Shown piece after piece: positions 19,413-36,821 of a DNA stretch of 40,574 nucleotides. Position numbers and translations under genes: made by a program. The stretch spans positions 1-40,574 of the forward strand of contig JAPKZQ010000034.1 of the NCBI GenBank assembly GCA_026393675.1, given 5' to 3'. Below the pieces are notes generated by a model. The model worked only from the letters and a program-made list of their open reading frames with translations, searched no databases and was not told where the DNA came from. Each line of letters begins with the position of its first letter. The first letter of the stretch is position 1. Source of the DNA: Acidobacteriota bacterium. Its GTDB lineage: Bacteria > Acidobacteriota > Vicinamibacteria > Vicinamibacterales > JAKQTR01.

Positions 19413-19799
19413 ATGACACCCACGCCACCCAAACCGACCGACGCCGAGCTCGCGATTCTTTGCGTGCTCTGGGAACGCGGGCCGAGCACCGTGCGTCAGG
19501 TTCAAGAGACACTCGAACAGGACCGGCCCACTGGTTACACCACGGCCCTGAAGCTCCTCCAGATCATGACGGAGAAGGGCCTGGTGGAACGCAACGCGTC
19601 CGAGCGCACGCACGTCTACTGGGCCCGCCGGTCCGAGCAGCAGACGCAACGCCAATTGGTGGGCGATCTGGTGGAACGCGCGTTTGACGGATCGGCGGCC
19701 AGGCTGGTGATGCAGGCGCTCGCCACCCGTCGTGCGACGCCGGAGGAACTCGACGAGATTCGCAGTCTGCTCGATCGGCATACAGGGAGTGACACATGA
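19413..19799 (+). CDS. blaI: BlaI/MecI-family transcriptional repressor
   Basis: A 128-aa winged-helix repressor. It has PTDAELAILCVLWERGPSTV at the N-terminus, recognition segment TGYTTALKLLQIMTEKGLVE and a C-terminal dimerisation helix region (LVERAFDGSAARLVMQALA). BlaI dimers block their own promoter until the partner M56 protease cuts or releases them. The next gene encodes that protease and overlaps by four bases (ATGA). Two palindromic operators lie in the promoter. Predicted transcription starts about two bases before the ATG, so the message is probably leaderless. No beta-lactamase gene is nearby, so the name reflects the family only. Confidence 0.88.
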   Translation: MTPTPPKPTDAELAILCVLWERGPSTVRQVQETLEQDRPTGYTTALKLLQIMTEKGLVERNASERTHVYWARRSEQQTQRQLVGDLVERAFDGSAARLVMQALATRRATPEELDEIRSLLDRHTGSDT

Positions 19800-22549
19800 T
19801 CCCCGAATCGATCAGCCCTATCCTCGGACACCCGATCGCCCGCGCGCTTGGCTGGGCGCTTGTCCATTTCATCTGGCAGGGGGCCCTCATCGGCGTCGCG
19901 GCCTCCGTGGCGTTCACGATGCTGCGCCGCACGCGCGGCCAGGCGCGCTACCTTGTCGGGTGTGCGGCCCTCATGCTGATGGCGCTCGCGCCTGTGGCCA
20001 CGACCTTCGTGACACTGCGCGCGATCGACTCGACCAGCGCCGTGCCGCGCGGCATGGGCGCACCTGACACGACCGCGCCTGTCCACCAGACATCCGTCCC
20101 TCTCGATGGGCATGGCACCGCCACGGAGGTACGGCCCGGCTCGAGTTCGGGTGCGCAGGTGTCACGCGCGGCGGTCGCGGCATGGATACCGTCAATCCTG
20201 GCGGCGTGGATCGTCGGCGTCGTGCTGCTGTCGGTGCGCCTCGCGGCGGGATGGACCCTGCTGCACCGCCGCCTGTACCACGAGCACCAGATGGCGGCGC
20301 CGACCTGTCAGCATCGTCTCGCGCGGCTGTCGGCGCGGATGGGCATCACGCGCAGGGTCAGGCTGCTGGTGTCCGCGTGCGCGGAAGTACCGTGCTCGGT
20401 GGGCTGGCTGCGCCCGGTTGTGCTGCTGCCCGTCAGCGCGCTGGCCGGCCTCTCCCCGCAGCAGATGGAGGCGATTCTCGCGCACGAGCTCGCCCACATC
20501 CGCCGCCACGACTATGTCGTCAACCTCCTGCAGACCGTCGTTGAGACGCTGCTGTTCTACCATCCGGCCGTGTGGTGGGTGTCACACCGGGTTCGCGTGG
20601 AACGCGAGTACTGCTGCGACGACTGGGCCGTGGCGATGTGCGGCGACACGGTTGGCTATGCGCGCGCGCTGGCCGAGTTGGAGCACCTGCGCCAACCGAG
20701 CCCTTCACTAGTCCTCGCGGCGGCGGGCGGGTCGTTGCTGACGCGCGTGCGTCGCCTGCTCGGCGCGCCGGACGCGTACCGCGGCAAGGGACCGCAGTGG
20801 GAAGTAGCGGCTGTGGTGCTGATGCTCCTCATCGCGTTAACGATTGGATCGCAGGCGCTCGACCGTCAGGGCGCTACGCGTCCGAGTGCAGATGCACCGC
20901 CTGCCGCACCCTCGAGCGGAGCGCGTCCCAGTGCAGGTGTGCCGCCTGCCGCGATCTCGAGCGTGGCGCCGCAAGGCTCCGCGCTTGCTGTGGCACCGCA
21001 GGCACCGACGGCGGTACCGGTCACCGCTCCCGGCCGCGTTGACGCGATCGACATCGCCGGCGACGCGTGGGACCAGATGCCACCGGCCCCACCGGCGCCG
21101 CCATCTTCCCCGGCTCCACCACCCGATCCGTCCGGGACGCCACAGGTGCCACCGTCGCCGCCAGCGCCACCGGCACCGCCGGCTCCCCCAGCGCCACCAG
21201 CACCGCCAGCGCCACCGGCACCACCGGATCCCCCAGCACGGCCCGAGGGGTTCTTCGCGCGTCTTGGCGAGTGGTTCGATTGCCTTACGGGCTCCGGCGA
21301 CTGGCCCTGGGGTTCAAAACCGAGCCAGTCCCGTTGGTCTTTTAGCGAGAACGGCCATGGGTTCGACGTGCGGACCAGTGGAACCGTGGTGTTCACAGAC
21401 GATGAGACCGACGTGAAGAGCATCTCCGCAGGCGGGTACTTCACGCTCACCGAACGCAACAACGGCACCACAACGTACGAGGTTCGCGCGAAGGCCGACG
21501 GATCGCTTGAGCGGCTGTGGAATGGCAAGCCGGTGGGGACAGAGGCGCGCGCGTGGCTGTCCCGGGCGCTGCCGGAATTCCTGCGGCAGTCGGGTTTCAA
21601 CGCCGAGGCGCGCGTCACGCGCCTGCTGGCCCAGAAGGGCGCGGCGGGGGTGCTCGACGAGATCACGGCGCTGAAGTCGAGCTATGTGAAGCGGATCTAC
21701 TTCGAAAAACTCTTCGCGAAAGCAAAGCTCGATCCCGCGACGATGGCTCGCGCGATCCGCCAGGCCGGCGCCGAAATCACATCCGACTACGAACGGGCGT
21801 CCGTGCTGGTTGATGCCACGAAGCTCGGCCTGCCCGACGACTCCTGCCGCCTGGCGTTCGCCGAGGCGACACGCGCCATGAAGTCAGACTACGAAAAGCG
21901 CCGGGCGCTCTCGGCGCTCATCGATGCCGGCCCCATCACCCCACAGGTCGCGAGCGTGATTGTCGAATCCGCCCGCGCGATGAAGTCGGACTACGAGCTG
22001 GCTGGCCTGCTCGTCCAGGTCAACCGGACGCAAGCCATGAACCCGGCCAGCGCGGATCTTGCCCTGACGCTGGCGGACGGGATCAAGTCCGACTACGAGC
22101 GGCACCGGGCGCTCTCCGCCCTGTTGAAGGGGCGAACGCTCGATGAGAACACTCAGACACGGCTCCTCGAGAGTTCCGCCCGCATGACATCCGACTACGA
22201 ACTCGGCGGGCTGCTCGTGGAACTGCTCCGTGGACAGCGCCTCGCGGGTCCGTCGCTCGACGCGTTCTTCAAGGCCGTCGCCACGATCGACAGCGATTAC
22301 GAACATGCCCGCGTCCTCAAGGCGGCGCTTGCCCTGCCCTCTCCGAGCGCGGAACTGCGCGCCCGGGTCATCCAGTCGGTCGCGACGATGAAGAACGATT
22401 ACGAGCGGGCCAACGTGCTCGTCGCGGCCGCGAAGGGCGCGACCTTCGATGCTGCCATGCGCAAGGCATTCCTGGACGCCGCCGACGCGATCAAATCTGA
22501 CTACGAGAAGAACCGCGCGCTGGCGGCTCTTGCCCGCACGCAGGAGTAA
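19796..22549 (+). CDS. BlaR1-type M56 metalloprotease with 34-residue repeat tail
   Basis: A 917-aa protein. N-terminal membrane helices (about 17-40, 50-72 and 128-150) precede the gluzincin motif HELAH (230-234). A downstream VEREYCCDDWA supplies the third zinc ligand (near 270). A last membrane helix (VAAVVLMLLIALTIG, about 341-355) follows. Next is a long Pro/Ala linker with PPAPPAPP-type repeats (about 423-482). The tail then has eight units with an SDYE or NDYE core beginning at 663, 697, 731, 765, 799, 833, 867 and 901, exactly 34 residues apart. A weaker copy is at 628. The usual penicillin-binding sensor domain of BlaR1 is absent; the repeats take its place. It probably cleaves or inactivates the BlaI encoded just upstream. 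Confidence 0.85.
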   Translation: MIPESISPILGHPIARALGWALVHFIWQGALIGVAASVAFTMLRRTRGQARYLVGCAALMLMALAPVATTFVTLRAIDSTSAVPRGMGAPDTTAPVHQTSVPLDGHGTATEVRPGSSSGAQVSRAAVAAWIPSILAAWIVGVVLLSVRLAAGWTLLHRRLYHEHQMAAPTCQHRLARLSARMGITRRVRLLVSACAEVPCSVGWLRPVVLLPVSALAGLSPQQMEAILAHELAHIRRHDYVVNLLQTVVETLLFYHPAVWWVSHRVRVEREYCCDDWAVAMCGDTVGYARALAELEHLRQPSPSLVLAAAGGSLLTRVRRLLGAPDAYRGKGPQWEVAAVVLMLLIALTIGSQALDRQGATRPSADAPPAAPSSGARPSAGVPPAAISSVAPQGSALAVAPQAPTAVPVTAPGRVDAIDIAGDAWDQMPPAPPAPPSSPAPPPDPSGTPQVPPSPPAPPAPPAPPAPPAPPAPPAPPDPPARPEGFFARLGEWFDCLTGSGDWPWGSKPSQSRWSFSENGHGFDVRTSGTVVFTDDETDVKSISAGGYFTLTERNNGTTTYEVRAKADGSLERLWNGKPVGTEARAWLSRALPEFLRQSGFNAEARVTRLLAQKGAAGVLDEITALKSSYVKRIYFEKLFAKAKLDPATMARAIRQAGAEITSDYERASVLVDATKLGLPDDSCRLAFAEATRAMKSDYEKRRALSALIDAGPITPQVASVIVESARAMKSDYELAGLLVQVNRTQAMNPASADLALTLADGIKSDYERHRALSALLKGRTLDENTQTRLLESSARMTSDYELGGLLVELLRGQRLAGPSLDAFFKAVATIDSDYEHARVLKAALALPSPSAELRARVIQSVATMKNDYERANVLVAAAKGATFDAAMRKAFLDAADAIKSDYEKNRALAALARTQE

Positions 22550-22551
22550 AT

Positions 22552-24561
22552 CTACTTGGCTGCTTCGGTCTGTTTGGCCTTGAGTTTCTCTTCGCGCGAC
22601 GTCTTGGCAATCCCGGCCAATTCCAGATCGTTCTGCTGTCCGGCGGCCAGCGCCGCCGGGTCTAACTTCAACGAGTGTTCGGTCGTGGCCAGCGGCACCA
22701 CGCGCCCGCCGGTATAAATCTGGTGGCGGCCGTTGAGGTCGTACCACTTCGCCAGCGTTGCCGTCTGGTGCTGCTTCTCGACGATCTGCCGCCAGCCCAC
22801 GCCGGTGTTGTACGCGCAGAACGAGACTTCGCCTTCCTCTGTGCCGTAGGGGATGATGCACTGGTGCGTGCGCCGGAAATCGTACGTCCAGAGATCCTGG
22901 AACCACATGCCCGCCACAAACAGCAGCAGCCACCGATCGGAGCGGCGCCGCTTGATATCTTCGGCTGTCCGGTCCTTGCCCACCTTGCCGTAATCGTGCT
23001 TGGTCGCACCGAACCCCTTGTCGATTCTCGCCAGCAGGTCGAGGATGCGCAACTGTTTCGGCGACGAGAACGGATCGAAGTTGCGAAGCACTGATACGCC
23101 CACCGCCAGGGTCGACGGGTACAGCACCTGATCCATGTAGGGAATTCCAGAGAGCAGCTTGACCAGCCACATCGGCCGCCTGAGACGCACGGCATCGTTG
23201 ATGATCGCGACGTCCTTATTGGCCCGCTCGAGATTGAGGAACCGGGTCAGGACCACGCGCTCCTTCGTCTCCTTGTCAACCAGCACCGCCATCCCCGCGC
23301 CGCAATCCGGGTGGCACCCGCAATTCACGTGGCCCCACTCCGCCGACGGGCCATGCGTCAAATCAGCCCAGTCAGCGAAGCCCCCCATCAGCGATATCGG
23401 GAACCAGTCGCGAATCGGATCGCCAATGCCCGTCTGTTTCTTGATGTCGTGCGCCAGATCCGCGATGGTGTAGCGCTGCGCGGCCCGCCGCTCGTCCGAG
23501 ATCGCCTCGTCGCGGCCCGTGAACGACACCGGCTGGAACGCAATGAACGACAGCCTGTTCGGATTGTCGAGAGCGAATTCGACGATGCGGCCGACCTGTT
23601 CGTTGTTGACGCCATTGATGATCGTGCTGACGAGCACGATGTCAACGCCCGCCTTGTACAGGTTCTCGATGGCCTGCAGCTTCACGTCGAACAGGTTGCC
23701 CACGTGACGGTGCGAATTGGCCGCGTTGCCGATGCCGTCGAATTGCAGGTAGACGAACCGGAGGCCGGCATCAGCCGCCTGCTGACAGAACTCGGGACTG
23801 CGCGCGAACTCGATGCCGTTGGTCGCCGCCTGCACGCTGTTGTAGCCGACCTCCTTGCAGTAGGCCACCGCTTGGAGGAAGTGCGGAGAGATCGTCGGCT
23901 CGCCGCCCGAAAACTGCACCGACATCTGCCGGCGCGGCTTGATCGAGGCCGCCCGGTCCAGGATGGCCTTGATCTCCGGCCAGTCGAGTTCGTGGACGAA
24001 GCCTACCTGATTCGCGTCAGTGAAACACGGGTCGCACATCATGTTGCAGCGGTTGGTCAGATCGACGGTAAGCACCGCGCCGCGCCCGTACCGGAGACTG
24101 CTGAACCCATGCTCGTGGAGTCCGGCATCGCCATGGACCGGGATGTCGCCGCCCGGGAACATCTCGCCCATCCGTTTGTAGAACGCCGGATCGGTCGACA
24201 GGACGTCCTCGAAATGACCATGTGCCGGGCAATCCTTGACCATCAGGATCTTGCCGTCCCGTTCGATGATCTGGGCGGGAATCTCGCCGGCATGCCCCTT
24301 GACGAAGACGTCTGGACCGGCCTTCCCGTCCACCACCTGCTGCCGCAGCTCGGGGACGCAGACCGGACAAAGTGACGTCGTCTCGCGCGGTACGCCCAAC
24401 GGCGGCCTGAACTTCTCCTTCGACTTCAGGAGCGGCACGTCCGACCACTTCGGCGTGAACGACTTGTTCTTCGAGAACAGGAAGATCGGAAGCATCAGAT
24501 ACCACACCACATTAGCCACGATGCAGAGCAGTTTCTCGACGTACTTGTGCGGAGGGTGCAT
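22552..24561 (-). CDS. Radical SAM enzyme, tetraether/membrane-spanning lipid synthase-like
   Basis: A 669-aa protein with a hydrophobic N-terminal segment (about 12-30, membrane association). A Cys-rich pre-domain has SLCPVC (65, 68) and CPAHG (111). The radical SAM motif is CNMMCDPC (172, 176, 179) with FSGGEPT (218-223). Extra Cys in CGCHPDC (414, 416, 420) suggest an auxiliary iron-sulfur cluster. The SLCPVC..CPAHG lead-in is characteristic of the archaeal Tes/MJ0619 class, which joins lipid tails by C-C bonds. Bacterial relatives are thought to make membrane-spanning fatty acids. The C-terminal 240 residues are not recognised. The start has AGGAG six bases upstream. Its end lies two bases from the convergent M56 gene. 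The radical SAM call is firm; the substrate is inferred. Confidence 0.8.
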   Translation of the reverse strand: MHPPHKYVEKLLCIVANVVWYLMLPIFLFSKNKSFTPKWSDVPLLKSKEKFRPPLGVPRETTSLCPVCVPELRQQVVDGKAGPDVFVKGHAGEIPAQIIERDGKILMVKDCPAHGHFEDVLSTDPAFYKRMGEMFPGGDIPVHGDAGLHEHGFSSLRYGRGAVLTVDLTNRCNMMCDPCFTDANQVGFVHELDWPEIKAILDRAASIKPRRQMSVQFSGGEPTISPHFLQAVAYCKEVGYNSVQAATNGIEFARSPEFCQQAADAGLRFVYLQFDGIGNAANSHRHVGNLFDVKLQAIENLYKAGVDIVLVSTIINGVNNEQVGRIVEFALDNPNRLSFIAFQPVSFTGRDEAISDERRAAQRYTIADLAHDIKKQTGIGDPIRDWFPISLMGGFADWADLTHGPSAEWGHVNCGCHPDCGAGMAVLVDKETKERVVLTRFLNLERANKDVAIINDAVRLRRPMWLVKLLSGIPYMDQVLYPSTLAVGVSVLRNFDPFSSPKQLRILDLLARIDKGFGATKHDYGKVGKDRTAEDIKRRRSDRWLLLFVAGMWFQDLWTYDFRRTHQCIIPYGTEEGEVSFCAYNTGVGWRQIVEKQHQTATLAKWYDLNGRHQIYTGGRVVPLATTEHSLKLDPAALAAGQQNDLELAGIAKTSREEKLKAKQTEAAK

Positions 24562-24725
24562 AGCGTTCTCCTGTCAGAATCCTCACGACCGGCCGTGCCA
24601 CCACGTGCGGCCCAGGACCGCCACCCGAGAGCACCCGGACTCACGGGACGGACAAATTCTACCTATCAAACCGGGTGAAAACTCGATGGAATAGGGAGTG
24701 GGCGGTCCGGCGGGACCAAGGGGCA

Positions 24726-24749
24726 CCGATGACTGTGAATGGTCATCGG
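24726..24749. terminator. Hairpin downstream of fabH
   Basis: An 8-bp perfect stem (24726-24733 with 24742-24749, loop TGTGAATG) lies 55 bases beyond the fabH-like stop. It may end that transcript or lie in the leader of the radical SAM gene. A smaller GGTCC/GGACC hairpin is at 24704-24717. Neither has a long U-tract. The 243-base gap holds no gene. Confidence 0.4.
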
Positions 24750-24804
24750 CGATAAATAAGGTCCGACATGTTCTGGCGGCAGGTACCGGCCGTTGACGCC
24801 CGGA

Positions 24805-25869
24805 TTACGCCCGGATGAGGGTTGCTCCCCAGCTCATGCCGGCGCCGAAAGCCACGCACAGCACGAGCCCGCCCGGCGTGATGCGGCCCGTGCGGACGCC
24901 TTCGTCCCAGAGCAGCGGGATGGTGGCGGCGGTGGTGTTGCCGTACTTCTGGATGTTGTGAATCACCTTGCTGTCGGGCAGGCCCAGCAGCTTCTGCACG
25001 TATTCGTTGATGCGGCGGTTGGCCTGGTGCATCAACACCAACGAGAGGTCGGCCGGCGTGAGGCTGTTGCGCTTGAGGATGGCCTGCGCCACCTCCGCCA
25101 TCCGCGTGATCGCCTGCTTGAAGATGTAGCGGCCGTCCATCACCGGGTAGTGATTGCCCCGGCCAATCATCTCCGCGTCCACGTAGGGTCGATGAGCCGA
25201 CCCGGCGCCCGGCACGCACAGCCGGTCATAGTCGGCGCCATCGGCGCAGATGATGTGGTCGATGATCCCCCGGTCTCCGCCCGTCTGCGCCTGCACGACC
25301 ACCGCGGCGGCGCCGTCGCCAAATAGCACGGACAGGTGTCGGTATTTCGTGGCGAGGTCCCACTCGTCCTGCGGGATGGGCGTGTCGATCGCCCCATCGA
25401 GTCGGGCCCAGCTCCCCGCCCGGAACGTCATGAACATGCTGTGGACCTCGGCGCCCACCACCAGCACGGTCTTCGCGAATCCCGCCCGAATCTGCGCGTC
25501 GGCCAACTGCAGGGCGTACACGAAGCCGCAGCACTGCTGCCTGATGTCGAAGCACGGGATGTTGCGAAGGCCAAGCCTGGCCTGAAGCAGCCCGCCGTTG
25601 CCTGGCATGTAGTGATCCGGGGTCATCGTCGCGTAGACCACCAGATCGATGTCGCGCGGCTCGATGGCGGCGGCCTCGAGCGCCTGTTTCGCGGCCGGCA
25701 CCGACAGGTCGAGCGTCGACGTGCCCGGATCCACGAAGTAGCGTGTCTCGACACCCGTGCGCTCGCGGATCCACTGGTCGCTGGTCTCCATGACCGTCGC
25801 GAGCATGTCGTTGGTGATGCACCGGGTGGGAATGCTCGAACCGCTGCCGATAATGAGAGAGTGGGTCAC
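24805..25869 (-). CDS. FabH-like 3-oxoacyl-ACP synthase III
   Basis: A 354-aa thiolase-fold condensing enzyme. The catalytic triad is visible: Cys113 (QQCCGFVYAL), His281 (LMHQANRRI) and Asn311 (YGNTTAATIP). The N-terminus has the family motif TSDQWIRERTGVETR, and the C-terminus is GLVLCVAFGAGMSWGATLIR. KAS III enzymes start fatty-acid chains from acyl-CoA, or make special acyl products when found outside the fab cluster. It is some 35 residues longer than E. coli FabH, with an insert around 145-178. No other fab gene is near. It lies upstream of, and co-oriented with, the radical SAM gene. GTG at 25869 is used because the family start SLIIGSGSSIP follows at once. Confidence 0.88.
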   Translation of the reverse strand: MTHSLIIGSGSSIPTRCITNDMLATVMETSDQWIRERTGVETRYFVDPGTSTLDLSVPAAKQALEAAAIEPRDIDLVVYATMTPDHYMPGNGGLLQARLGLRNIPCFDIRQQCCGFVYALQLADAQIRAGFAKTVLVVGAEVHSMFMTFRAGSWARLDGAIDTPIPQDEWDLATKYRHLSVLFGDGAAAVVVQAQTGGDRGIIDHIICADGADYDRLCVPGAGSAHRPYVDAEMIGRGNHYPVMDGRYIFKQAITRMAEVAQAILKRNSLTPADLSLVLMHQANRRINEYVQKLLGLPDSKVIHNIQKYGNTTAATIPLLWDEGVRTGRITPGGLVLCVAFGAGMSWGATLIRA

Positions 25870-31817: not shown

Positions 31818-34800
31818 TCATGTCGTCACCGACGCGCGCCGTTCGAGCTTGTTCCACCCGACGGGCCCGCCTCTGAGCGAGTCGAGCATCGAGCGGATCG
31901 CGATGTAGTACATCACCTGCCGGTAGACGAAGCGCTGCCACAGCAACAACCACAGCAGGCGTGGAGACTCCCGGCGTTCCAGGATGAAAGCCAGGCACCC
32001 GGCCAGGACGTCGGCCGCCAGGAAGAGCGCGTAGTAGAACGCCACCTGGTAGAGATCATCCGGCGTGTACTCGGCGGGGTGCATCCAGTATCCCATCCCG
32101 GCCGACACGAGCGATCCCACCATCATCAGATCGATGACGGGCGAGATCAGCGGAAACAGCACCTGAAACAGGAAGACATTCGGCAGCGCGACGAAGCCAA
32201 GCCCGCGATACCGCCACCGGAACAGCGCGTCGCGGTGCTTCCAGGCGGCCTGGAATGTCCCGAACATCCACCGATGGCGCTGCCGCACGAACGCCCGCAC
32301 GGTCTCAGGCGCCTCGGTATACGCCACAGCCTCATCGTCATAGATGACGTGATACCCCGTGCGCAGGATGGTCATCGTCAGGTCGGCGTCCTCGGCCAGT
32401 GTCGCGGCCGAAAATCCTCCGGCCTCCATCACGAGCTGCCGCCGCCAGGCTCCGACCGAACCGGGCACCACCGTAATGCACCCGAGCAGGTCGAAGGCCC
32501 GGCGATCGAGGTTCTGGCTGGTGATGTACTCGAGCGCCTGCCATTTCGTGAGGAGGTTGACGCGGTTGCCGACCTTGGCGTTGCCGGCCACCGCCCCCAC
32601 CCGCGGATCGGCGAAGTGGCGCACCAGCGCTGCGATCGTCGTCGACGTAAACACGGTGTCGGCGTCGAGCGCCACGACGATGTCGGCATTCGTTTGCGTC
32701 AGCCCGAAGTTCAATGCGGCCGACTTGCCTCCGTTCGATCGTTCGAACAACGTGACATGCGGCTCGCCCGAGAACTCCTCCCTGATTCGCGCCGCGGTCT
32801 GGTCGGTTGATCCATCGTCGACGACGAGAATCTTGACGCCCGGCACGCCCACCGATCGCAGCAGCGCGCGCACGGTCTGGACGATCACCTTCTCTTCGTT
32901 GAACGCCGGAACGATCACCGCGATCGGCCCGGAAAACGTCAGCGGGAGGCGGTTCTTCCGGAGCAGCCGCTCTGCGATCGCGACGCCGCCGATGAAGACC
33001 AGCCGGCCCATGCCGAGGATGATCGCAATCAGAAACAGCAGACTGACGAAGGACTGCACCAGATTGACCGAATTGAAGGCGGCGGCGTCCACCAGCGATT
33101 GCCAGTAGCCCCGGCCCTGCACCGGGGGCATGACTTGCGCCGTCGTGCGGCCCAACAGTTCGCCAACCGTCACGAACTTCATGTGGCGACGGCGGAGCTC
33201 GGCGATGATTCGCGGCAGCGCCTCAACAGTCTCGCTGCGATCGCCCCCGCCATCGTGCAGCAGGATCACGTTGCCCCGCCCGGCGGCCGCCTGTTCAATC
33301 GTCCGGGCGACAATCGCGTACACGCCGGGCTTTTTGTAGTCCTTCGGATCGATCTGCATCCCGACGGTGACATATCCCATCGCCGTGGCGGTCTCGATGG
33401 GCCGGACCTGGACCGGGGTCTCCGGCTCGATATCCTCCGAGTAGGGCGGCCTGAACAGAACCGATTGCCGGCCGAGAATGCTCTCGAAGAGCCGTTGTGT
33501 CGCCGTCAGTTCGAGCCGGAGCTGCGCCCGCGAGATGTTGGCGATGTTGGGATGCGTGAACGTGTGATTGCCGATCTGGTGGCCCTCGCGGTACATGCGG
33601 CGGACCAGTTCCGGATACTCCTGCGCCGCGAGTCCCGTCACGAAAAACGTGGCCGGCGCCTTCAGGTCGCGGAGCACATCGAGAATCGGCGGCGTGTACT
33701 TTTCGTCCGGTCCATCGTCGAACGTGAGCGCCACCGCGCCCTTCGTCGCGCCGTAGCGGGTGACAACGTACGGAGCCGGCAGCGATTCGAACTGCTCATT
33801 CGTGATGAGCGCGCGGGCATCGTCGTACGTCAGGGTCCGGCGCCCTAACTGGGGAGACTCGGTGATTGAGAGAATCTCCCCTTCACCTTCGAAGTCCACG
33901 CCGTAGCCGTATTGCACCGTTCCCAACTCGCCAATCTGGGCGCGATCCAGGGCTCGGGCATCGCCGAAAAACGTCCAGATACCCGGGTCTTCGCTGCCCA
34001 GTCGCCATAGAGCGAGGGCCGCCTTCGGGTTCAGCGCTCGCGTCATCGACGCCTGGTTGAAGGCGGTGAGGGCGTCGAGAAACCAGACTTCGTGCTCTTC
34101 GCCGTTGTCCGCCCGATACCGGTAGGTGGGATTGAGCGACTCCGGGTCGACGGTGATGGTCGCGCCCGCCTCCTTGGCGGTGAGCATGGCCTCTTCGAAC
34201 GTTCTGCCTCCACGCCGTGGCCAGTCGTAGGCGTAGTTGCCAATGGCCATCACCAGTTTGTTGGGCGGCACATCCGCGAGGCGCGCCTGCAGCACGTTCA
34301 TGAAGAACTGCATGCTCGACACGGGGCCAGGATCGCTGGTGGCCCAATGTTCATCGTATGCCATGACGATCAGATAGTCGACCTTGGAGGCGTATTTGCG
34401 GTAGTCGAACATGGGGTCGTTCTCGGGCACGTTCATCGACACGAGCAGGCCGGCCCCATGGAACACGGTCCACACTTCGGACATGAACGTCTGCAGGTTC
34501 GGCTGGCTGGCGTTGGGCACGTTTTCGAAGTCGATGCTGATGCCGGCGCCGCCGACCCGCCTGACGTAGTCGAATGATTCGCGGATCACCCGGCCCCTGG
34601 CCGCGCGGCTGGCCAGCATGCCCGCCAGTGGCGCACTCGGGAACGATCCGCCGGTCGCATTGTTGACGAGCGGCATCACACGCATGGAGGGCCGCCGCAG
34701 GCGGACGAAGTCGAGCGCCTCGGCCTGGCGTTCCGGGTTGTCCTCGACGAGCGTCCCGTCGGGCTTCGTCAGATGCAGCCACTCGGCCGCCAGGACATCA

Positions 34801-35204
34801 AAATGATCGACATTCCGCCTGAGCGAAGCCAGGCTCGCTTCGTCCCAGTTGACAAAAAAGCCGAAGATGACGGGATCATCGGTCGGTCGTGGCACCGAGG
34901 CGAGTCGCTTCCATTCCGCCTCGTGCCGGAGACGTTCCCGCTCGATCTGTTGCCTGGCCGTTCGCACGCCCCGGCGATGCAGCGGCACCACCGGCGGCCG
35001 AAGCGGAGGCGAAAGGTGGGCCGACCCCGGCAATGACGTGACGGAGGGCAGATTGAGAGAAGGCAGCACAGGGTTGACGAGGATGCTTAGAATGAGGAGA
35101 CCGAACATGCCCGTCAGCACGAAGCTAACGAAGAGCATCGCCTGCCGCAGCCGCGGCCATCGCTTCCGCGACGGGTCGAAGAAGACAGGTCGCTGCTCGG
35201 TCAT
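31818..35204 (-). CDS. GH18 - polysaccharide deacetylase - GT2 fusion protein
   Basis: A 1128-aa membrane enzyme. A cytoplasmic N-terminus and one membrane helix (about 20-46) are followed by a GH18-like domain (about 105-420) whose motif GISIDFENV gives D225 and E227. A carbohydrate esterase 4 deacetylase follows (about 485-690; LTFDDGPDEK near 495 and HQIGNHTFTHP). Another membrane helix precedes a GT2 synthase (about 755-1000) with VPAFNEE, VVDDGSTD, DADT, EDAD and RQRHRW (Q-x-x-R-W type). C-terminal membrane helices end it. Together these suit synthesis, deacetylation and trimming of a beta-linked amino-sugar polymer, like PgaB plus PgaC in one chain. ATG 35204 is chosen as the frame upstream is not protein-like. 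Confidence 0.88.
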   Translation of the reverse strand: MTEQRPVFFDPSRKRWPRLRQAMLFVSFVLTGMFGLLILSILVNPVLPSLNLPSVTSLPGSAHLSPPLRPPVVPLHRRGVRTARQQIERERLRHEAEWKRLASVPRPTDDPVIFGFFVNWDEASLASLRRNVDHFDVLAAEWLHLTKPDGTLVEDNPERQAEALDFVRLRRPSMRVMPLVNNATGGSFPSAPLAGMLASRAARGRVIRESFDYVRRVGGAGISIDFENVPNASQPNLQTFMSEVWTVFHGAGLLVSMNVPENDPMFDYRKYASKVDYLIVMAYDEHWATSDPGPVSSMQFFMNVLQARLADVPPNKLVMAIGNYAYDWPRRGGRTFEEAMLTAKEAGATITVDPESLNPTYRYRADNGEEHEVWFLDALTAFNQASMTRALNPKAALALWRLGSEDPGIWTFFGDARALDRAQIGELGTVQYGYGVDFEGEGEILSITESPQLGRRTLTYDDARALITNEQFESLPAPYVVTRYGATKGAVALTFDDGPDEKYTPPILDVLRDLKAPATFFVTGLAAQEYPELVRRMYREGHQIGNHTFTHPNIANISRAQLRLELTATQRLFESILGRQSVLFRPPYSEDIEPETPVQVRPIETATAMGYVTVGMQIDPKDYKKPGVYAIVARTIEQAAAGRGNVILLHDGGGDRSETVEALPRIIAELRRRHMKFVTVGELLGRTTAQVMPPVQGRGYWQSLVDAAAFNSVNLVQSFVSLLFLIAIILGMGRLVFIGGVAIAERLLRKNRLPLTFSGPIAVIVPAFNEEKVIVQTVRALLRSVGVPGVKILVVDDGSTDQTAARIREEFSGEPHVTLFERSNGGKSAALNFGLTQTNADIVVALDADTVFTSTTIAALVRHFADPRVGAVAGNAKVGNRVNLLTKWQALEYITSQNLDRRAFDLLGCITVVPGSVGAWRRQLVMEAGGFSAATLAEDADLTMTILRTGYHVIYDDEAVAYTEAPETVRAFVRQRHRWMFGTFQAAWKHRDALFRWRYRGLGFVALPNVFLFQVLFPLISPVIDLMMVGSLVSAGMGYWMHPAEYTPDDLYQVAFYYALFLAADVLAGCLAFILERRESPRLLWLLLWQRFVYRQVMYYIAIRSMLDSLRGGPVGWNKLERRASVTT

Positions 35205-35282
35205 GTATTTGCCGTCACTACCCGTCGTGAGACCCGTCCATGATACCGCGACCAGTGGAAAATCCGCGTCAGGCATGAACCC

Positions 35283-36821
35283 ATGACCACCAGAACCCGT
35301 GCCGTCGTCTGTGCTGCCCTGCTCCTGGTCGCGCTGGCATTCCGGCTGGCGCTCGCAATCGGCATGCCCAACGACGAGCCCGACGATGCCCGCTTCTACA
35401 CGCTGCTCGCGCGAAACCTGTTGATCCATGGCGTGTACTCCGGATCGCCAACGCCCCCTCTCGCGCCGACCTATGTGCGGGTGCCCGGGTATCCCCTCTT
35501 TATCGCAGGCATCTATCGTGTGTTCGGGGTCGACAACGACACCGCCGTCCGCATGGTGCAGGTGGTGATTGAGACAGCGACCTGCTGGAGTGTCGCGTGC
35601 CTGGCGCTGGTGCTGGTGCCGAGTGCCTGGCCGCAGAAACGACGCTGGCGTGTCCAGTGTGCCGCGCTGGGACTGGCGGCCGTCTGCCCGTTCACGGCCA
35701 TCTACGTCACGACGGTGTTGACCGAAGTGCTGGCCATCGCGCTTGGTACGACCATCGCGTGGTTCGCGATGCGCGCGCTACGTGAAGATACGAGCGACGG
35801 CCACCGCCAGGCTGGCGGCGGACGAGGGGCCTGGGCGTGGTGGTTCGCCGCCGGGTTGGCCGGAGGCGCGTTGACGATCGTACGTCCCGAGGGTGGACTG
35901 CTCACGGCCGGAGCCGGCGCGACCATGGTGCTGGCCGCTGTATGGCAATGGCGACGGCGCGGATCAGGATCGGCCGCCCGCGCGGCCGCGCGTGTCGTGC
36001 GGTACGGTGTTCTGCTGGTACTGGGCTTCCTGGTATGCGACGGGCCCTGGATCATCCGGAACGCCAAGCTGTTTGGTGTCTTCCAGCCCATCGCGCCGCC
36101 GACAGTCGCGATGCCGAAAGACTTCGTGACGACCGGCTACGCGAGGTGGCTCAGGACCTGGGTCAACGAACCCAGGTATGTGGGGCCCTTTGAATTCGAT
36201 CAGGACCGCGCGCGGTTCTCGATCGACCAACCCCCGCCGTGGGCCTTCGATTCGCCTGAGGAACACCAACTGGTAGCCGAGCTGTTCTCCCGGTACAACG
36301 ACGGTGAGCCGGGGCGGCGCGATGCTCGTCCCGGTTCGGCGAACGAGCCGGTCGGGATCACGCCTGAGCTGGACGCGCGGTTCGAGACATTGGCTTGGGA
36401 CCGGATTCGACGTCATCCGATTCGGTATTACGTCTCGCTTCCTGCCGAGCGTGTCTTCTGGATGTGGGCAGGTCCCCATTCACAGTACTACCCGTTCAAT
36501 GGTGATCTCGTTCCGCTCGCAAGCCTCGATCGGGACATGCGGCAGCACATCTGGCTGCCGATTTTCGCCTTGCTGACGCTGGCATGGACCGTGGCCGGCG
36601 TGGCGGGCGCGGTGCGTCTTGTCTCGGAGCCCGCATCGCGGTTCGGCCTCGTCCTGCTGGTGATGCTGGTGGTGCCGCGGCTGGCGCTGCTGGGATCGAT
36701 GGAGAACCCGGAGCCCCGGTACATGGTGGAGTTGTTCCCGTTCCTGTCGGCGCTTGGCGGGGTGATGATCGGATCGGTCTGGTCACGGTGGGCCGATGGA
36801 CACGTGATCGAGACGGAATAG
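35283..36821 (+). CDS. GT39/ArnT-like membrane glycosyltransferase
   Basis: A 512-aa polytopic protein of the GT-C fold. The first membrane helix (VVCAALLLVALAFRLALAIG) is followed by the loop motif NDEPDDARFYTLLARNLLIH, with acidic residues where polyprenyl-phosphate-dependent mannosyl/arabinosyl transferases have their catalytic Asp. Some ten further helices follow, and a periplasmic segment (about 270-385) precedes FETLAWDRIRRHPIRYYVSL. It likely moves a sugar from a lipid carrier to a protein or glycan outside the membrane; the substrate is unknown. It is divergent from the GH18-GT2 fusion with 78 bases between starts, and a shared polysaccharide role is plausible. The GH2 gene lies downstream beyond a repeat. 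Confidence 0.8.
   Translation: MTTRTRAVVCAALLLVALAFRLALAIGMPNDEPDDARFYTLLARNLLIHGVYSGSPTPPLAPTYVRVPGYPLFIAGIYRVFGVDNDTAVRMVQVVIETATCWSVACLALVLVPSAWPQKRRWRVQCAALGLAAVCPFTAIYVTTVLTEVLAIALGTTIAWFAMRALREDTSDGHRQAGGGRGAWAWWFAAGLAGGALTIVRPEGGLLTAGAGATMVLAAVWQWRRRGSGSAARAAARVVRYGVLLVLGFLVCDGPWIIRNAKLFGVFQPIAPPTVAMPKDFVTTGYARWLRTWVNEPRYVGPFEFDQDRARFSIDQPPPWAFDSPEEHQLVAELFSRYNDGEPGRRDARPGSANEPVGITPELDARFETLAWDRIRRHPIRYYVSLPAERVFWMWAGPHSQYYPFNGDLVPLASLDRDMRQHIWLPIFALLTLAWTVAGVAGAVRLVSEPASRFGLVLLVMLVVPRLALLGSMENPEPRYMVELFPFLSALGGVMIGSVWSRWADGHVIETE

Follow-up and report, generated by a model that had tools for sequence, protein, structure and literature searches.

A Tes-related radical SAM clade of Acidobacteriota without N-terminal cluster ligands, a candidate for coupling fatty-acyl lipid tails

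Iso-diabolic acid (13,16-dimethyloctacosanedioic acid), in which two iso-C15 tails are joined at their end carbons, ranks among the major membrane components in many soil Acidobacteria and is a likely building block of branched glycerol dialkyl glycerol tetraethers (GDGTs). Branched GDGTs serve widely as proxies for the temperature and pH of the past, and their source organisms and genes are poorly constrained. Which enzyme makes the joint between the two tails? The question is raised by a 40,574-nucleotide stretch of an Acidobacteriota genome (contig JAPKZQ010000034.1, assembly GCA_026393675.1), referred to here as the window, in which an original prediction from the sequence placed a radical S-adenosylmethionine (SAM) protein resembling the archaeal tetraether synthase Tes beside a KAS III enzyme, and read the pair as a possible locus for membrane-spanning lipids. 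The host genome (G000) measures 3.25 Mb, is 98.6% complete, and encodes a single member of the Tes family and two KAS III enzymes. The gene at the center of the question is the following:

22552..24561, minus strand: Tes-like radical SAM protein of 669 amino acids (open reading frame, Pfam, NCBIfam, PDB match and fold match)

A relative of archaeal tetraether synthase

The 669-residue protein is a relative of archaeal Tes, matched over almost its whole length by both sequence and predicted fold. Its reading frame opens with ATG downstream of an AGGAG, and because it is kept across the order at 63-82% identity, it is not a chance open reading frame. Pfam assigns the protein a Radical_SAM domain and Zn_ribbon_HMPTM (PF23545), the name of which presumably stems from an old annotation of MJ0619. 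The top NCBIfam model is Tes (NF045702), with a score of 306 bits that does not reach the curated cut-off of 450. Among solved structures, the closest in sequence is Methanocaldococcus GDGT-MAS (7TOL/7TOM; E 7e-59), which the core and the C-terminal cluster domain match separately.

An AlphaFold2 model, built on 27 sequences, reached a predicted local distance difference test (pLDDT) of 64.9 and a predicted template modeling score of 0.72, and is poor around the cluster sites. Alignment of this model with GDGT-MAS by VIA-align covers 420 residues between positions 58 and 664 (Z 22.0, root-mean-square deviation 4.1), the runner-up being MoaA at Z 13.4; at this model quality, the protein agrees with Tes in its overall fold, and the agreement extends to the C-terminal auxiliary domain. 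The assignment to a Tes-like class is thus borne out by the Tes profile, the PDB match, the fold and the catalytic ligands described below. Two narrower memberships were rejected: that of canonical Tes, on account of the sub-cut-off score and the loss of the cysteines of the N-terminal cluster, and that of TrsS (NF045646), for which the score was 215 bits against a cut-off of 490 and the tree gives a separate clade.

The structural alignment accounts for most of what had been described as an unexplained C-terminal extension of 240 residues. The segment is largely the C-terminal auxiliary-cluster domain of Tes, with C420, M552, C568, Y572 and C582 all aligned in sequence, and what is truly extra amounts to about 60 residues at each end of the protein:

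22552..22743, minus strand: C-terminal extension beyond Tes, approximately residues 607-669 (mostly low-confidence in the model)

Metal sites and the lost N-terminal cluster ligands

The GDGT-MAS description (PMC9433317) lists rubredoxin ligands C9/C12/C33/H36; a surface-located N-terminal cluster, [4Fe-4S]N, bound by C73/C77/C80 and one histidine; a CX3CX2C radical SAM cluster; and a C-terminal cluster, [4Fe-4S]C, with the labile Met439 and with Tyr459 near the substrate. The corresponding positions were followed through an alignment of 66 orthologs and in 24 remoter homologs of Tes or TrsS type, also from Acidobacteriota.

24481..24555, minus strand: N-terminal helix, residues 3-27 (hydropathy and moment; helix in the model)
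24196..24390, minus strand: rubredoxin-like metal site C65-C68-C111-H114, residues 58-122 (orthologs, Pfam PF23545, and the ligand set of PMC9433317)
24088..24150, minus strand: degenerate [4Fe-4S]N site, residues 138-158 (three cysteines lost, HxHG in their place)
24025..24048, minus strand: radical SAM cluster C172-x3-C176-x2-C179 (sequence; 66/66 orthologs)
23302..23322, minus strand: CGCHPDC motif, of which C420 aligns with a conserved cysteine in the C-terminal half of Tes
22816..22908, minus strand: C-terminal auxiliary cluster segment with M552 (= Met439), C568, Y572 (= Tyr459) and C582 (7tol alignment)

The motifs singled out by the original prediction are all in place: SLCPVC contributes C65/C68, CPAHG contributes C111/H114, CNMMCDPC contributes C172/C176/C179, and CGCHPDC contributes C414/C416/C420. 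C65, C68 and C111 are kept in every one of the 66 orthologs and H114 in 65, and the Cys3His site is therefore present. Likewise, C420, C568, C582, M552 and Y572 align to Tes and are invariant (66/66). Judging from this conservation and from their position relative to the ligands named for GDGT-MAS, C420, C568 and C582 would be the three cysteine ligands of [4Fe-4S]C, a predicted metal site at which the equivalents of Met439 and Tyr459 are retained.

The N-terminal cluster is where the protein departs from Tes. Its cysteines are absent from the 669-residue protein and from all 66 orthologs, and are present in 23 of the 24 distant homologs, the sole sequence without them being L077, a paralogue that joins the same clade. 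In place of the segment CPYDCGLCP, the clade carries a pattern such as LHxHG, in which H151 is invariant. Its gains comprise invariant H143/H151 and C414; C414 and C416, both extra relative to Tes, are nearly invariant within it. Members score 306-332 bits on the Tes model.

In a maximum-likelihood tree, the clade without the N-cluster ligands has support of 99/99, and the stem on which it is united with the L077 paralogue is long, at 1.81 changes per column. The TrsS-type proteins form their own clade (100/100). The profile search and the tree together place the protein among Tes homologs, as had been anticipated: Tes is the best, albeit sub-cut-off, NCBIfam model, and the clade is nested within Tes homologs, beside the canonical acidobacterial Tes of one family (96/85). 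Absence of the N-cluster is thus a derived state, which suggests that a four-cofactor enzyme is able to shed the ligands of one cofactor while those for catalysis are kept. Some genomes (for example G024, G034, G038 and G039) carry a second, paralogous Tes-like protein of the L077 type, likewise lacking the N-cluster ligands and 51-57% identical, often on top of the main copy.

The predicted hydrophobic N-terminus was also confirmed, with a Kyte-Doolittle mean of 2.37 over the 19 residues starting at residue 11. The helix is amphipathic in the orthologs and strongly hydrophobic in the window protein, and its character makes membrane contact or attachment probable.

Distribution, proposed reaction and competing explanations

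Of 347 Acidobacteriota genomes sampled, approximately 162 hold members of the clade. Related contigs numbered at least 582 in a scan of named genomes, almost all named relatives of the protein being acidobacterial; the 80 loci retained include Granulicella rosea, Granulicella aggregans, Acidipila rosea, Acidicapsa dinghuensis, an Edaphobacter metagenome-assembled genome (ortholog L166), Bryobacterales and Blastocatellia. Proteins of family f23 share 80-94% identity with sequences from Granulicella, Edaphobacter and Acidipila. Nine Acidobacteriaceae genomes, Granulicella, Acidipila and Acidicapsa included, were compared, and in seven of them the clade member is the only clear full-length Tes-family protein; Acidicapsa holds a further copy, and Granulicella S156 has one that is fragmented. 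A search of plasmids gave relatives at 22-29% identity only; plasmids of Mycolicibacterium vanbaalenii and Mycobacterium branderi encode distant Tes-like radical SAM proteins with 23-24% identity over about 80% of the query.

This distribution fits that of iso-diabolic acid producers. According to a 46-strain survey cited by PMC13274423, the acid is present in subdivisions 1, 3, 4 and 6; for subdivisions 8, 10 and 23 it was not reported. It makes up 12-30% of the fatty acids of Edaphobacter (PMC11354219) and 27-49% of those in the Occallatibacter-Terracidiphilus group (PMC12935467), and Chloracidobacterium contains it as well (PMC12816986). Together with the Tes-like sequence, fold and catalytic ligands, these observations support the lipid-coupling role foreseen for the radical SAM protein. 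It is quite probable, by analogy with Tes, that the protein belongs to a Tes-derived bacterial clade whose members link two saturated fatty-acyl tails of membrane lipids at their terminal carbons. On grounds of homology and distribution, the clade is the best candidate for the enzyme of iso-diabolic acid formation in Acidobacteria, where it most likely couples iso-C15 tails end to end, in parallel with the action of Tes on phytanyl tails, from phytanyl to biphytanyl. Tes homologs of bacteria and Acidobacteria were already proposed in 2022, without proof, as the makers of such lipids (Zeng et al. 2022, PMC8941075; Halamka et al. 2022, PMC10087280), and what is new here is the definition of a clade without the N-cluster. 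Easily recognized, spread across the Acidobacteria and accounting for the main Tes-type protein of these genomes, this single clade offers a concrete gene for study.

If the protein works like its homolog GDGT-MAS, SAM at the C172/C176/C179 cluster would give rise to a 5'-deoxyadenosyl radical, which would take a hydrogen atom from the terminal methyl group of the first tail. The resulting alkyl radical might then be kept on the C-terminal [4Fe-4S] cluster at C420/C568/C582, with its labile Met552, until a second SAM activated the remaining tail, whereupon a bond would form between the sp3 carbons. Iso-C15:0 tails would in this way be converted to 13,16-dimethyloctacosanedioyl (iso-diabolic acid) chains. 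In the host, the products are probably ester-bound, since its genome encodes no protein with DUF2229, the Ger/PlsA marker; ether formation by way of Ger/PlsA was rejected on the same observation. A search for the hopanoid protein HpnH gave no match above its cut-off.

Several points weigh against this assignment. The Tes score lies below the NCBI cut-off, the [4Fe-4S]N ligands are missing, and the structure model, with its pLDDT of 64.9, provides middling guidance. Some Tes homologs were nearly inactive in a test host (MA_1114, PMC8941075). A more distant radical SAM coupling enzyme may also be present in these genomes. Finally, Solibacter usitatus has Tes homologs and branched GDGTs and no detectable iso-diabolic acid (PMC10087280), and the assignment of product is therefore not one-to-one. 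This last observation favors an explanation in which the clade does couple tails, yet mainly into ether-bound products of the branched GDGT type or from other chains, with iso-diabolic acid arising from another enzyme, such as an ortholog of the characterized bacterial membrane-spanning lipid synthase Mss. Such a division of labor seems unlikely, given that seven of the nine Acidobacteriaceae genomes showed no other clear full-length Tes-type protein, and the missing DUF2229 protein speaks against the ether route in the host.

The long stem branch, the clade-wide loss of the N-cluster and the gain of invariant H143/H151 and C414 could alternatively signal a Tes-derived enzyme whose reaction has changed, for example to crosslinking, cyclization or another C-H modification of lipid tails. 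A change of this kind is improbable, however, because the whole proposed catalytic center has been kept, including the Met439 and Tyr459 equivalents, and [4Fe-4S]N lies, according to PMC9433317, at the surface of GDGT-MAS and away from the coupling site.

A tentative and rather doubtful proposal is that iso-diabolic acid in Acidobacteria is made by this clade and that the uniform loss of the surface [4Fe-4S]N cluster adapts a Tes-type enzyme to oxygen-respiring bacteria, electrons arriving at the radical SAM cluster by another route. Of 30 genomes with a clade member, drawn from many families, 29 have a COX1-family (heme-copper oxidase) gene above its cut-off, compared with 6 of 13 genomes with canonical Tes alone (Fisher p 4e-4, uncorrected for ancestry). 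Since nitric oxide reductases also fall within the COX1 family and the genomes share ancestry, these counts are only a hint. Moreover, the source genomes of the sister canonical proteins L078-L080 do have COX1 genes, and oxygen alone therefore fails to explain the loss.

The KAS III neighbor, the wider surroundings and known systems

Upstream of the radical SAM gene, on the same strand, lies the second member of the proposed pair, which starts with GTG:

24805..25869, minus strand: KAS III / FabH-type enzyme of 354 amino acids (NCBIfam, triad)
25342..25416, minus strand: 25-residue insert of the KAS III subfamily, residues 152-176 (alignment with orthologs and the second FabH)

Its membership in FabH is established by scores of 334.9 bits on PRK09352 (cut-off 249) and 304.4 bits on fabH (cut-off 292.1). 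The details that had been noted for this protein hold: the triad Cys113-His281-Asn311 is present, and the family-atypical insert proved to be a 25-residue segment common to the orthologs and absent from the second FabH of the host. That second FabH, encoded at C6 in an order resembling RuvC-RuvA-RuvB-FabH-QueA (gene names read from sequence), is 38% identical to the window enzyme; in light of this second gene, a housekeeping role of the window KAS III was set aside as unlikely.

The description of the two genes as a co-oriented pair holds as to strand, but they are separated by 243 bp. Orthologs of the KAS III adjoin the radical SAM gene only in the family of the host (G000, G001, G003 and G004). 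Both genes are present and apart in G006 and G009, five genomes carry the KAS III without a clade member (G021, G031, G121, G254 and G365), and most radical SAM orthologs have no KAS III neighbor. Across the 347 genomes, 51 carry close relatives of the KAS III, and 16 of these have the clade where about 24 would be expected (Fisher p 0.02, uncorrected for ancestry). Beyond close kin, neither conserved adjacency nor co-occurrence of the KAS III and the Tes-like gene was found.

It is thus highly unlikely that the pair is a dedicated locus whose KAS III provides an unusual starter chain for the membrane-spanning lipid, despite the co-oriented adjacency of the two genes in four genomes of one family, the intact triad and the conservation of the insert in the subfamily. 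The 243-bp gap, the orthologs located elsewhere in two genomes, the five genomes with the KAS III alone and an association that is, if anything, negative all argue against the two-gene membrane-spanning lipid locus, and the distribution of the KAS III therefore points to local gene order and not to a shared pathway. Most likely, the KAS III is an independent fatty-acid starter enzyme that became a neighbor by chance in this family. Relatives 44-52% identical to it (families f37, f38, f54, f88 and others) occur mostly in genomes without the Tes-like clade, and this KAS III group therefore has a role of its own.

No general operon partner of the radical SAM gene was found among its relatives, MsrP-MsrQ and MoaA recurring only in part of the order. 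The methionine sulfoxide reductase genes msrP-msrQ lie near the Tes-like gene in 9 of 20 same-order relatives (L039, L040, L042-L045, L047, L048 and L051), and a moaA-like gene does so in eight relatives, a set that overlaps the first; MsrP requires the molybdenum cofactor. In seven loci (L110:321-1340 and six others), a second radical SAM protein is encoded upstream in the same orientation, with a group median gap of 61 bp, and is a candidate for a second lipid-modifying step. One neighboring protein belongs to the TIGR03436 'acidobact_VWFA' subfamily, which, like the named relatives of the radical SAM protein, marks the host as an acidobacterium; the gene content of its kin suggests Vicinamibacteria (subdivision 6). 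At 19796-22549 of the window, on the plus strand, a 917-residue BlaR1-type M56 peptidase with a long proline-rich linker and a repeat-rich C-terminal part is encoded convergently with the Tes-like gene, their stop codons 2 bp apart, and at 31818-35429 on the minus strand lies a 1203-residue fusion of glycosyl hydrolase 18, polysaccharide deacetylase and family 2 glycosyltransferase domains.

Among known systems, the window KAS III compares with FabH in its fold family and Cys-His-Asn triad, and differs by the 25-residue insert. The TrsS-type (seleno)proteins share with the 669-residue protein the N-terminal half of the Tes superfamily, whereas the C-terminal cluster cysteines are mostly missing from them. 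Mss (Sahonero-Canavesi et al. 2022) is alike by description, having the same proposed task of forming iso-diabolic or diabolic acid and, according to PMC13274423, a Tes catalytic architecture; the 669-residue protein matched no model named for Mss. The canonical acidobacterial Tes proteins (L078, L081, L085, L089 and L097) belong to the same family as the 669-residue protein, with 30-36% identity, and have the same C-terminal cluster, yet their [4Fe-4S]N cysteines are intact and their scores of 474-619 bits exceed the Tes cut-off. Archaeal Tes/GDGT-MAS (MJ0619, 7TOL/7TOM) shares the fold over the whole length, the rubredoxin Cys3His site, the CX3CX2C cluster, the three conserved cysteines of the C-terminal region, Met439 and Tyr459. 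At approximately 32% identity, the 669-residue protein differs from it in lacking all three [4Fe-4S]N cysteines, in scoring 306 bits against 450, in its extra N-terminal helix, C-terminal tail of about 60 residues and C414/C416, and in a host whose lipids are built from fatty acids and not from isoprenoids.

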